IMG/VR virus record: IMGVR_UViG_3300042894_000738
Coordinates: 1 to 42,553 of that record
Reading direction: 5' to 3' (one strand)
DNA length: 42,553 nt
Source of the DNA: a virus
The notes below the pieces were generated by a model. The model ran no database searches. It saw only the letters and a list, made by a program, of their open reading frames with translations, and was not told the DNA's origin. The translations under genes were made by a program, and so were the position numbers. Within the stretch, counting starts at the first letter, position 1; every line of letters begins with the position of its first letter. Below are positions 2,987 to 23,910 of this stretch, piece after piece.

Positions 2987-3250
2987 ATGCCAAGCAACAC
3001 ATTGTTTGTTAAACGACACTACGATTACCTCGGAGCATGGTGGAAGACAGAGCCGTTGCACCGTCCTGCTGTCCGCGTAGCCTTGCTACGCTTTACAGTA
3101 GAACTGCGAAGGACACAGAGTAACTTCCATGCTACACGCTTTCTGCAAGCGTGTGGTTACACACGTGGAGTAGCTGAACAGATGGCAGCACAAGTCGATG
3201 ACGCCTATAATCAGGCTAACCATCCAATCAACCAAGTTGTTGACGACTAA
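2987..3250 (+). CDS. Hypothetical protein, 87 aa
   Basis: First gene under P3, with a strong GGAGGAAGG ribosome site about 6 nt before the ATG. The protein is basic in the middle (RVALLRFTVELRRTQSNFHATRFLQACGYTRG), looks mostly helical and ends in VVDD. It could be a small DNA- or protein-binding factor, but I recognise no family. The end overlaps the frame of the next small gene. Confidence 0.7.
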   Translation: MPSNTLFVKRHYDYLGAWWKTEPLHRPAVRVALLRFTVELRRTQSNFHATRFLQACGYTRGVAEQMAAQVDDAYNQANHPINQVVDD

Positions 3251-12089: not shown

Positions 12090-12661
12090 GTATGCAAAAG
12101 CGTATCATCCTATTCAATGGTCCACCACGTAGTGGTAAGGACACTGCTGCATCCTTCATCTACAGTGCTAACCCATTCATTCATTGGTTCCGTATGTCGC
12201 AGCCATTGAAGGATATGGTATCAGCGTTCTTCACACTGAATAGCACAGATGCTAAAGTCATTGAGCAGCACAAAGATAACAAGTTACCGCTACTGTTTGA
12301 TAACACATTCCGTGAACTACAGATATGGTTCAGTGAAGAATGTGCTAAGCCTAAGTTCGGTCGTGATGTATTCGGTCGCCTAGCACGTAGGCGTATTGAG
12401 AATGCACTGTCAAAGCTACATATCTGTAGCGACTGTGGCTTCATTGAGGAAGCTATCCCACTGTTAGACCTAGTTGGTCCACAGAACATGCTTGTTGTAC
12501 AAGTATACCGTGACGGCTGTGACTTCACAAAGGATAGTCGTAGCTACATCACACTCCCTGGTGTGAAGACTATCAAGCTGGTAAACAGCGGCTCCATTCG
12601 TGACTACGAATACAATGTCAAGGCGGCAGTTAACCTATGGTTGGAAGCACAGGAGAGCTGA
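12086..12661 (+). CDS. Deoxynucleoside monophosphate kinase-like protein
   Basis: P-loop kinase fold, 191 aa, with Walker A GPPRSGKDT at residues 12-20. The following helix, a lid-like region (CSDCGFIEEAIPLL) and a C-terminal VVQVYRDGCDF strand resemble T4 gp1-type dNMP kinases. These phosphorylate dNMPs to dNDPs for replication, consistent with neighbouring ThyX and MazG-like functions. Catalytic Arg assignments are uncertain. Overlaps the helicase gene by 4 nt and the polymerase gene by 25 nt. Confidence 0.75.
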   Translation: MSMQKRIILFNGPPRSGKDTAASFIYSANPFIHWFRMSQPLKDMVSAFFTLNSTDAKVIEQHKDNKLPLLFDNTFRELQIWFSEECAKPKFGRDVFGRLARRRIENALSKLHICSDCGFIEEAIPLLDLVGPQNMLVVQVYRDGCDFTKDSRSYITLPGVKTIKLVNSGSIRDYEYNVKAAVNLWLEAQES

Positions 12662-14322
12662 ACCGTAAGTTCGTAGAACGTGCTACAGCAGCAGGACTGT
12701 CCTATGACTGCCTCGGTGATGGCAACTTCAATAGTGAAGTTGTCATTGTATCCGAGGCACCAGGGCCGCGTGAGACGCAGCTTAAGCTCCCCCTCGTAGG
12801 GGGGAGTGGACAGTTTCTGTGGAAAGTGCTAGCACAGTTTAACTTACGCAGACAGCATTGCTACATTACCAATGTAGTGAAGAAGCAGTTAGTCGATGGA
12901 GTGAAGGGTAAGGAGGGTCTATCGAAGAATGAGCTTAGTCATTGGAAAGCACTGCTAGATTGGGAACTATCACAGTTACCTAATGTTAAGTATGTGTTAG
13001 TCCTCGGTGGCCTAGCACTCGAAGCACTAGTCGGTGACACTGGCATTGAGAAGTGGCGTGGCTCTGTAGTCAATGACGGTAAGCGTACGTACGTTATCTC
13101 ATACAATCCTGCATTGCTAATGCGTAAGCCTAACTTAGAACCCATCTTCTACCTAGATGTATCTAAGTTAGATGCAGTCATGCGTGGGCAATGGTCTGAG
13201 TATCAGATCGAACACTTGTACGATCCTTCACCGAAGGAGGCGATACAGTGGTGTGATCGTATGATACAGGAAGGTAAGCCTATTGCATTAGACATTGAGA
13301 CTACTGCTGGTGAAACTGCATGTATAGGATTAGCCAACGATGCTCACATTGGAATGTGCATTAACTTCAGATCACGTACTGACAATCGTTGGACGCTTTC
13401 TGAAGAACGTGAGGTTCGAAGAAGTATACAAAGGGTACTCCGTCACGCATCAACGCGGATCGTTGCACAGAATGGTGGATTTGACTGTGGATGGTTATGG
13501 TATAAGGATCGGATACGATCGAAAGCGTTATGGCTCGATACACTACTTGCTCATCACACACTCCACCCAACGTGGCCACATAATCTTGCATTTCTCACCG
13601 CGCAGTACACTTCGCATCCATACTACAAGGATGACATACATGAATGGCGTGAAGGCGGAGATATCTCCACCTTCTGGATGTACAACGTCAAAGACTGTTG
13701 CATCACCTGGGAGGTAGCACGTAAGCTAGAGGCTGAGCTACGTCAGCAACAGATGTGGGACTTCTTCCATGGCCATGTTATGCGACTACAGCCGCACCTT
13801 ATCACTGCTACAGTGTTAGGTAATGACGTAGACCTACGTATGCGTGAGCAGCTTAACCATGACTATGGATTAGAAGTAGACCGTCTAGCGGCTGAGTTCA
13901 AAGCTGCTGCACGCATTGCTGCTAACGATCCAGAGTTGGATGTTAACCCTCTCTCGCCTAAGCAGCTAGGCTTACTGCTGTTCCAGAAGCTACGGCTTAT
14001 CGGTAAGACTACATCGACTGATGAAGCTAACCGTAATACAATGATTGAGAACCCTCGTACACCTGAGGATGCACGGCGTATGCTAGTGCTACTTAATGAG
14101 TTCAAGGAACAGCATAAGCTGTATAGCACATACATCACTGCTGCTGTCGATCCTGACGGACGTATGCGCAGTGACTACAAGCAGTACGGCACACAGTTCG
14201 TGCCTGGACGGCTATCATCTAGTCAGACACTATGGGGTAGTGGCATGAACTTACAGAACCAACCGGAACGGTTACGTGGCATGTTCATTGCACCGAAGAT
14301 TAAGATACCGGAGGGTATGTAA
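12637..14322 (+). CDS. DNA polymerase I, N-terminal fragment: UDG-like + 3'-5' exonuclease + palm start
   Basis: 561 aa. Residues 30-170 resemble a family 4-type uracil-DNA glycosylase (VVIVSEAPGPRE at 35-46, CYITNVVK at 75-82, YNPALLMRKP at 156-165). The usual YHP is YNP and the CxxC Fe-S cysteines are missing, so glycosylase activity is doubtful. The exonuclease motifs are complete: Exo I DIE (219-221), Exo II NGGFD (279-283), Exo III YNVKD (349-353). The polymerase then runs to the conserved GRLSSSQ...NLQNQP element and stops just before motif A. The rest of the enzyme is encoded at 14589. The stop overlaps the next ATG (TAATG). Confidence 0.88.
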   Translation: MVGSTGELNRKFVERATAAGLSYDCLGDGNFNSEVVIVSEAPGPRETQLKLPLVGGSGQFLWKVLAQFNLRRQHCYITNVVKKQLVDGVKGKEGLSKNELSHWKALLDWELSQLPNVKYVLVLGGLALEALVGDTGIEKWRGSVVNDGKRTYVISYNPALLMRKPNLEPIFYLDVSKLDAVMRGQWSEYQIEHLYDPSPKEAIQWCDRMIQEGKPIALDIETTAGETACIGLANDAHIGMCINFRSRTDNRWTLSEEREVRRSIQRVLRHASTRIVAQNGGFDCGWLWYKDRIRSKALWLDTLLAHHTLHPTWPHNLAFLTAQYTSHPYYKDDIHEWREGGDISTFWMYNVKDCCITWEVARKLEAELRQQQMWDFFHGHVMRLQPHLITATVLGNDVDLRMREQLNHDYGLEVDRLAAEFKAAARIAANDPELDVNPLSPKQLGLLLFQKLRLIGKTTSTDEANRNTMIENPRTPEDARRMLVLLNEFKEQHKLYSTYITAAVDPDGRMRSDYKQYGTQFVPGRLSSSQTLWGSGMNLQNQPERLRGMFIAPKIKIPEGM

Positions 14323-14582
14323 TGACACCTAAACAAGTGCAACGTAAGTTAGTTGTTATACAAAAGCGTACCGCTTCTGCGTATGCAGCATTGAAAGCGT
14401 TACAAGATACTTGTGCGCATCCTACACCTACATATAAGTACTGTGGTAGTTCTGGGAGCTACGATCCTAGCAACGACTCTTATTGGATAGACTGGCACTG
14501 TCCTGACTGTAATAAGAAATGGAATACACCACAACATCGACAGCATACAGACAAGTATCCTAATGCGGTGCGCATAAGGTAG
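14322..14582 (+). CDS. Zinc-ribbon protein inserted between the two polymerase halves
   Basis: 86 aa, translated from an ATG overlapping the stop of the N-terminal polymerase fragment. Residues 31-63 carry C31-x-H33, C41 and CPDC (60-63) with an intervening SSGSYDPSNDSYW segment. To my recollection this pattern recurs in small uncharacterised phage proteins, which suggests a separately acquired gene. It has no homing-endonuclease motif. It fills almost the whole gap between the halves, leaving little room for an intron core. It may bind the split polymerase, or only be a passenger. Confidence 0.75.
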   Translation: MTPKQVQRKLVVIQKRTASAYAALKALQDTCAHPTPTYKYCGSSGSYDPSNDSYWIDWHCPDCNKKWNTPQHRQHTDKYPNAVRIR

Positions 14583-14588
14583 GAAGTA

Positions 14589-15383
14589 ATGGCACATATT
14601 CAACGTGTTCGTGAAGAACAACTACACTTCGTATACTTCGATGGTGCTCAAGCAGAAGCACGCATCGTAGCATACGAAGCTGACATTCCTAAGTGGAAGG
14701 AGCAGTTTGAGAATGCAAGACTTAACCCAGGATCGTACGATGCACATATTGCGCTTGCGTCTGAAATGTTCAACATATCCTATGGTGACGTACCAACGTA
14801 TGATTATGAAGCGGACGGAAAGCTCACGCTACGCGGCATTAGCAAGAGGTGCCGTCATGGACTTAATTACCGGATGCAGTCTGCAAGGCTTGCCGGAGTC
14901 ACTGGTATGTCGCTTACAGAAGCTAACATCGCCTTTGATTTATATCATCGTACAACTCCTGAACTCCGACGCTGGTGGAATGACATTATCAATGAAGTAC
15001 AAGCAACTAGAGTACTCTATACATGTCTCGGTAGACGAATGGAGTTCCTCGGATCAAGGATAGATGAGTCTCTCATTGATAGCATCATTGCATTCAAGCC
15101 ACAGTCTACACTTGGTGACTTCGTATGCGGTGTACAGTGGAAAGTGCAGGAGGATGACGAGTGGCCACTCTATGCTAGAGTACCATTCAACAATCATGAC
15201 TCATTGACTGCAATGTGTCGTGAGAAGGATGTACAGCTAGTAGCTAGACTACTGCGTAAGTACGCTGAAGCACCATTGATAATCAAAGGTGAGCAGTTAA
15301 TCATCCCTGCCGACTTCAAGGAGTCATTCGCAGATGAACAAGGTATGCACCGATGGAGCAACTTAAAGAAGTTGAAGATGTAG
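14589..15383 (+). CDS. DNA polymerase I, C-terminal catalytic fragment
   Basis: 264 aa carrying the remaining family A polymerase motifs. Motif A is FDGAQAEAR (D18, E23). Motif B (O helix) reads R82-x3-K86-x3-H90-G-x2-Y94, with His where T7 polymerase has Tyr526. Motif C is NNHDS (H203, D204), where the usual second acidic residue is Ser. The N-terminus (MAHIQRVREEQLHF) looks native up to the strand before motif A, so the split falls in the palm. Fragment association is needed for activity unless RNA splicing joins them. AGGAAG precedes the ATG closely. Confidence 0.88.
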   Translation: MAHIQRVREEQLHFVYFDGAQAEARIVAYEADIPKWKEQFENARLNPGSYDAHIALASEMFNISYGDVPTYDYEADGKLTLRGISKRCRHGLNYRMQSARLAGVTGMSLTEANIAFDLYHRTTPELRRWWNDIINEVQATRVLYTCLGRRMEFLGSRIDESLIDSIIAFKPQSTLGDFVCGVQWKVQEDDEWPLYARVPFNNHDSLTAMCREKDVQLVARLLRKYAEAPLIIKGEQLIIPADFKESFADEQGMHRWSNLKKLKM

Positions 15384-22435: not shown

Positions 22436-23449
22436 TTAGGTGCCTCCTACGTGGCGACCGTCAGCACTCACGAATGATGCAGGAGAGGTGTAGTTACGAC
22501 TACCAGGGTCACCAAATAGATTACGCAACCATGCACTCTCTGATGCAGACTTAATGCCACCTTGTACTGCATTGGATATGTTACTGATATCCAAACCGTA
22601 GTTTGAAGTAGGCATACTCTTAACCTCAAACGGCGTCATGCCCCGTCCTACACCTTGCATCCCCATGGTGCCTGCATAGCTACGATTAGCTAGCAGCGAG
22701 GACAGGTTGTTGTCAATGTCAGTGACAGCAGACTGTTGCCCAACAGGTGTAGTAGCACGTCCTGCTAGTACATTGTACCTGTTCAGTGAATTACCTTCAC
22801 GACCAGCACGGCGTGCTTCAAACTCTGGATTAGAGTCAGCCTCTGCTTCTGTGATAGCAGTACGTAAGTCAGGAGCCGCGGTACGACTCATCTCACGGAT
22901 AGCATCAGCACCACTTGCACCTTGCAGTGAACGGATACCTACAGTAGATGCAGCATTCAGCCTGCCAGAGTTGGCTCTAGCAGCATTGCGTGCAATCAGT
23001 GTACCACGGATATCATCCAGTGTCTGACGACCTACGCCTGCGTCAGTACGTTGTACATCAGCTTCCGCTCCTTCACGTAGTTGACGATCGAACTGATTGC
23101 CACGCTGTAAGCGTTGCTGAACAGCATCACGTGTGAGACGTGTGCGTTCTTCACTATCACTAGCACTGATGATACCACGTGTGGTATCCGTCGGACGACT
23201 AACCCATCCCACACCTGGGACGTATTCAGTTACATCACCACGTGCATCGCGTGTGCCAGCCTGTGCCATCTCCTGCTGTCTAGCAGCGATCTGTCGCTGT
23301 AAGTAGTAGTTACGGAAGTTGATATCATTTTGTGCAGCGATTGCTGCGGTGTCTACCTTAGACTTATTCCTAGAACCAAAGATGCTGCCAATGCCACTGG
23401 CTAAAGCACCTGCTGCGCCTACGCCAGCAGCAATAGCTGAGAATGCCAT
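22436..23449 (-). CDS. Virion-associated protein, 337 aa, with hydrophobic Gly-rich N-terminus
   Basis: Starts MAFSAIAAGVGAAGALASGIGSI across residues 1-23, a Gly/Ala hydrophobic segment often found at the N-terminus of podoviral internal virion proteins, followed by a long Arg/Gln-rich helical region. The C-terminus is Gly/Ser-rich. The start shares bases with the stop of the acetyltransferase gene. Probably part of the ejected core with its two downstream neighbours. Confidence 0.7.
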   Translation of the reverse strand: MAFSAIAAGVGAAGALASGIGSIFGSRNKSKVDTAAIAAQNDINFRNYYLQRQIAARQQEMAQAGTRDARGDVTEYVPGVGWVSRPTDTTRGIISASDSEERTRLTRDAVQQRLQRGNQFDRQLREGAEADVQRTDAGVGRQTLDDIRGTLIARNAARANSGRLNAASTVGIRSLQGASGADAIREMSRTAAPDLRTAITEAEADSNPEFEARRAGREGNSLNRYNVLAGRATTPVGQQSAVTDIDNNLSSLLANRSYAGTMGMQGVGRGMTPFEVKSMPTSNYGLDISNISNAVQGGIKSASESAWLRNLFGDPGSRNYTSPASFVSADGRHVGGT

Positions 23450-23910
23450 CAGTTGATGTCCCGTGCATATACGTGTTCTTGTAGCTTGAAGTCATGCTTC
23501 TCGAACAACGGAGTTGTGTTATAGCAGGTGCGATAGCGATGTACTACTCGTTGAACACCACGATCACGTAGAGCATTGATAGAGAAGTCTAGCAGTGTGC
23601 TACCGATGCCTTCGCCACGGCGAATATGTGATACCGCAAGAGTGTCACACTCTGCGACGGTCATCGTCCTATGGTGCGGATGCTGTACAATCATGTACAG
23701 CCCTGCTCCATAGAGCTTGTAACCATCTTCGTTATCACGTGCTGTGGTAATGAGCAATACGCCTGCGTCTTGTAGCGCATAGTACAATGGCCAGTCGAAG
23801 TCATACGGAGGTAGATCAGTATGTGCCGGTGTAGCAGCGTAGTACGCTTCAAACAGCGCAGTCAGTTCTTCCTCTAGTCTAGGACTTAGACGATCTGTGT
23901 TATATTCCAT
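23449..23910 (-). CDS. GNAT-family acetyltransferase, 153 aa
   Basis: The acetyl-CoA binding motif A is visible as RRGEGIGSTLL (residues 97-107) after a central strand (MTVAECDTLAVSHI), with the terminal strand RVVHRYRTCYNTTPLFEKHDFKL typical of GNAT ends. GNATs transfer an acetyl group from acetyl-CoA to amines. It sits inside the virion-core gene cluster and overlaps both neighbours, so it is expressed late; it may modify a virion or host protein, substrate unknown. Confidence 0.8.
   Translation of the reverse strand: MEYNTDRLSPRLEEELTALFEAYYAATPAHTDLPPYDFDWPLYYALQDAGVLLITTARDNEDGYKLYGAGLYMIVQHPHHRTMTVAECDTLAVSHIRRGEGIGSTLLDFSINALRDRGVQRVVHRYRTCYNTTPLFEKHDFKLQEHVYARDIN

Follow-up and report, generated by a model that had tools for sequence, protein, structure and literature searches.

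Split phage polymerases are already known, namely gp43A/gp43B of the T4-like phages and the polymerase of MEP401. In the T4-like phages 25 and 44RR the replicative polymerase is encoded by two ORFs with intervening DNA, as at the locus described here, and the gp43A and gp43B halves from Aeromonas phage 25 purify together and are active as a polymerase (Petrov 2010, via PMC2988022). These are, however, family B enzymes, and what lies between their ORFs is either a seg homing endonuclease or an untranslated sequence. The nrdA gene of phage Aeh1, with mobE, is likewise an essential enzyme split by a free-standing gene, and it works as two chains (PMC2988022), which by analogy the enzyme studied here may also do; the Aeh1 enzyme is a ribonucleotide reductase and its insert a homing endonuclease. 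LUZ24-like phages carry a DNA polymerase part I and part II with small ORFs between them, but there the break separates the exonuclease domain from the polymerase domain and does not fall in the palm (PMC3890496). The PolA of Caulobacter phage Kuura (L117 1474-4878) has a break of the LUZ24 kind: two ORFs stand between its exonuclease and its polymerase part. The OM43 phages MEP401 and MEP402 (Zobellviridae) have a PolA split as NLQN...LFLSRYGE* / MILNADAKALEW with a small ORF between the parts, for which the authors suggested an intron (PMC10580990). Beyond MEP401, the literature on split phage PolA yielded nothing relevant for family A. Here we describe a PolA gene divided within the palm. 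We consider, with a probability of roughly 85%, that polA underwent fission, that two separately translated chains assemble in trans, and that the junction serves as a hotspot where passenger genes, neither introns nor required assembly factors, are gained and lost.

The window, i.e., the whole stretch of DNA analysed, is a virus record of 42,553 bases from a tailed phage (terminase, portal and major head protein genes are present). Three ORFs of 561, 86 and 264 aa lie on the + strand at 12637-15383. The first (12637..14322, the N half) encodes a UDG superfamily domain (residues 27-166, E 9e-20), a 3'-5' exonuclease (residues 209-368) and the thumb and palm as far as NLQNQPERLRGMFIA, and ends in a short tail, PKIKIPEGM (14293..14319), that stands in place of the junction loop of intact relatives. 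The UDG superfamily domain at its N terminus (window 12637-13200) is fused to the exonuclease and polymerase in intact relatives as well. The second ORF (14322..14582), which is Cys-rich and belongs to PHROG 4837, overlaps the stop codon of the N half as TAATG (14320-14324), and a GGAGG within the tail-coding stretch is a plausible Shine-Dalgarno sequence for it. The third ORF (14589..15383, the C half) has its own ATG, preceded by a purine-rich, Shine-Dalgarno-like stretch, and carries motif A (D18), motif B (R82, K86) and motif C (H203-D204). It opens with a leader, MAHIQRVREEQLHF (14589..14630), that has no homology to the loop of intact polymerases and whose [KR]EE[SQ]L core is kept across the split clade. 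The palm is thus cut between NLQNQPERLRGMFIA and motif A, which reads VYFDGAQAEAR; the break separates MFIA, at residues 549-552 in the first ORF, from VYFD, at residues 15-18 in the third.

The first ORF covers positions 25-149 of the Pfam family DNA_pol_A (E 4e-9) and the third covers 149-355 (E 6e-14); for PHROG 17 the corresponding spans are 546-1004 and 1007-1236. Since the matches of the two halves abut in both profiles, the polymerase gene was cut without loss. The Pfam matches are above cut-off in both halves and the motif residues are conserved, as expected for a family A DNA polymerase (PF00476); two complementary ORFs cover one enzyme, and intact homologues exist, as expected for a gene in pieces. 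These results bear out the original prediction of a PolA split in the palm before motif A, with an 86-aa gene in the gap that is coupled to the first fragment by TAATG. Its comparison with LUZ24 does not fit, given the different site of the break in LUZ24-like phages (PMC3890496); a split of that type was rejected, as the first ORF of the window holds the exonuclease and part of the polymerase domain together. An AlphaFold2 model of the C half alone (pLDDT 90.7, pTM 0.86) predicts disorder only at residues 1-6 and matches the palm and fingers of Taq, Bst and Klenow (Foldseek); the sequence profile places the start of the C half at about residue 600 of Taq, and the PDB match is to Taq and Klenow.

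Alignment to uninterrupted homologues showed that the closest intact relatives, L031 and L032, join the same flanks without an insert and read MFIADPKYVYVYFDGAQAEAR. A six-residue junction was present in 21 of 21 intact sequences matching the junction pattern, L031 and L032 alike (43 intact sequences without a match to the pattern were left out of this measurement). In the predicted structure of L031 (pLDDT 90.5, matching PolA structures overall) the break site corresponds to an ADPK turn (residues 537-540) that adjoins the motif A strand (541-548), with residue numbers taken from the motif A Asp547 column.

Scans of IMG/VR recovered 14 split contigs in the clade of the window, the window included, with about nine insert arrangements among them. 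Each has at least one small ORF between the halves, the smallest being a single ORF of 48 aa; no insert-free member of the clade was found in two further viral scans with clade-specific alignments, and a bacterial genome scan found no relative. In two contigs 98-99% identical to the window the split is kept, the inserts are completely different and the boundaries lie exactly at the ORF ends. The insert consists of a 67-aa-type ORF plus a WYL-like ORF in L005 (99%), one 67-aa-type ORF in L006/L007 (98%), three ORFs in L008/L009, two ORFs each in L014, L015, L017 and L018, one Cys-rich ORF of 48 aa in L024/L025, one ORF of 93 aa in L033 and about three ORFs in L034. None of 18 relative contigs, several of which are partial, contained the 86-aa gene of the window, and among the relative contigs compared the 67-aa gene was confined to those of L005, L006 and L007. 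In the genome alignment, 14323-14585 (+ strand) is replaced outright in G002, with flanks 95% and 91% identical, and is likewise swapped wholesale in G001, with flanks 99% and 96% identical. About nine stretches of at least 60 bases differ between the window and G002, so gene turnover is not unique to the polymerase junction. Over the 27 kb shared with G001, only 14323-14585 and 23439-23907 differ; the latter holds an acetyltransferase-like gene in the window that is missing from the otherwise near-identical G001. The C-half start is duplicated in L005 as a 19-nt direct repeat (2799-2817 and 3049-3067) on either side of the second, WYL-like insert ORF, the footprint of a recent gene insertion into the leader.

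The 86-aa protein had been called a zinc ribbon. It does have a suitable pattern of residues (C31, H33, C41, C60, C63), from which the label is read; its Pfam match is sub-threshold, and its family, PHROG 4837, stands alone in jumbo phages and ICP1. The scanned inserts of the window's clade matched no endonuclease family, unlike the insert of ICP2, and so do not qualify as homing-endonuclease insertions.

In MEP401 and MEP402 the break falls in the corresponding loop, and the two parts enclose an ORF of 77 aa. Their polymerase is distant from that of the window, their first ORF lacks the UDG domain, and they belong to a separate, strongly supported clade that, unlike the clade of the window, includes insert-free and separated halves. 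With the MEP401 C half as query, an IMG/VR scan returned 80 loci, 76 of them with both halves; the polymerase is split in all 76, and 22 have no insert gene. Among these 22, stop and start overlap by one base in 10, the overlap is larger in 4, and 8 show a short gap that lacks any ORF of at least 35 aa; the remaining loci carry varied ORFs. The halves also overlap by one base, with no insert, in the isolated Alcaligenes phage QDWS535. In MW202796 (L208, 6800-12700), a complete circular phage genome from one metagenomic assembly, the halves are separated by about 3.6 kb that holds seven annotated genes, among them one for a cytosine methyltransferase. In Vibrio phage VS-ABTNL-3 the break lies about ten residues further upstream, around a 184-aa ORF, and in ICP2 an HNH endonuclease gene occupies nearly the same palm site (L205 3158-3667); the depositors annotated the ICP2 polymerase as a joined CDS. 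In the tree the clades of the window and of MEP401 and the VS-ABTNL-3 sequence fall in different parts, with intact neighbours (some branches are long); such scattered positions require several changes of state.

The proposed explanation is that polA was split at the short loop preceding the motif A strand of the palm and that each of the two ORFs is translated on its own from a single tight operon. The two polypeptides would then associate to form one family A polymerase, in which the N half would supply the UDG domain, the exonuclease, the thumb and part of the palm, and the C half motifs A, B and C. The intervening small ORFs would be passengers, gained and lost at a docking site between the two genes. 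As a speculation, a homing endonuclease that was later lost may have caused the original break, as the ICP2 arrangement suggests.

Among the alternatives, a self-splicing group I or II intron that holds the insert and its ORF, with splicing restoring one polymerase mRNA, retains the most weight, though we regard it as quite improbable. PolA genes often host introns, small inserted ORFs are typical of them, an intron was proposed for MEP401 (PMC10580990), and in ICP2, where an HNH endonuclease gene interrupts the polymerase close to this site, the annotation is a join. Against this, no Rfam match was obtained in the window or its relatives at E values up to 1, in a search of low power that also left ICP2 blank. 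Phages that are 98-99% identical share no insert sequence, whereas a group I or II intron would be expected to have a core conserved between relatives, and the gap in L024 leaves about 110-150 nt, less than a self-splicing intron needs. The C half begins at a start codon of its own, and its leader is translated; the leader changes among the three closest phages, small in number, are all synonymous. The turnover of inserts, the insert-free splits of the MEP401-like group and the 3.6-kb, seven-gene separation argue strongly both against an intron and against the insert as an assembly factor. Of the readings offered by the original prediction, splicing is accordingly disfavoured, and assembly of the halves in trans is the one best supported by the sequence comparisons.

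Somewhat less credible still is a role of the inserted protein as a structural or assembly subunit that bridges the halves, the second idea in the original prediction to lose ground. The gene does sit exactly between the halves and is translationally coupled, and several inserts are Cys-rich or helical. Yet unrelated inserts stand beside near-identical polymerase halves, the family of the 86-aa ORF occurs by itself elsewhere while the ORF is missing from the relatives compared, and the second phage group often has no insert at all. In the lineage of the window the insert is thus probably dispensable to the polymerase.

Breakage of the gene into two ORFs might also mean that an insertion inactivated polA, which is now decaying while the phage uses another polymerase, a scenario to which we give very little credence. 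Compared with L007, dN/dS is 0.031 for the N half (81 synonymous and 10 nonsynonymous changes) and 0.051 for the C half (29 and 6); overall it lies at 0.02-0.05 in both, and strong purifying selection acts on both polymerase halves. The catalytic residues are invariant across the aligned split and intact sequences, the catalytic motifs being kept across the clade at 68-75% identity, and no other polymerase was found among the window ORFs scanned. The dN/dS values rule out a pseudogene. They also speak against sequencing error as the source of the break, which was ruled out together with the finding that near-identical contigs from other metagenomes break identically. An intein was ruled out, as no intein domain was matched and the profile matches of the halves reach the break. 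Fusion of the halves into one chain by programmed frameshift, stop readthrough or ribosomal bypass, to which the overlapping stop and start codons of some insert-free MEP401-like splits would in principle lend themselves, is the least credible of all, as the halves in the window are separated by about 270 nt that include a coding ORF and both insert length and reading-frame relation vary among close relatives.

The intact polymerase gene of L031 (4375-6753) is nested in the split clade and is possibly re-fused. The tree pairs L031 with the split L033 as sisters (100/99), within the split clade, and monophyly of the split sequences was rejected (p-AU 0.0017). This placement implies either re-fusion or a regained intact allele, or a second split, at the identical codon, in L033. 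Resemblance between the tails (DRMTFDE in L033, DRMTFDD in L034) and between the EESL leaders favours a single split allele, and the nesting of L031 and L032 together with the p-AU value would point to precise re-fusion or allele replacement.

New here are the recurrence of the break at one palm loop, the turnover of the inserts and, possibly, a precise re-fusion. Whether the loop before motif A should be seen more generally as a recurrent and reversible fission site, used in at least three independent lineages, yielding a stable two-chain enzyme and serving as a docking site for gene exchange, we judge to be evenly balanced. A natural PolA split point beside a catalytic strand would be useful for folding studies and for engineered split polymerases. 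The two-chain model offers a testable replacement for the untested intron reading of MEP401-type phages, and the locus would represent an essential gene at which small genes are exchanged, and a close relative with the gene intact could serve as control.
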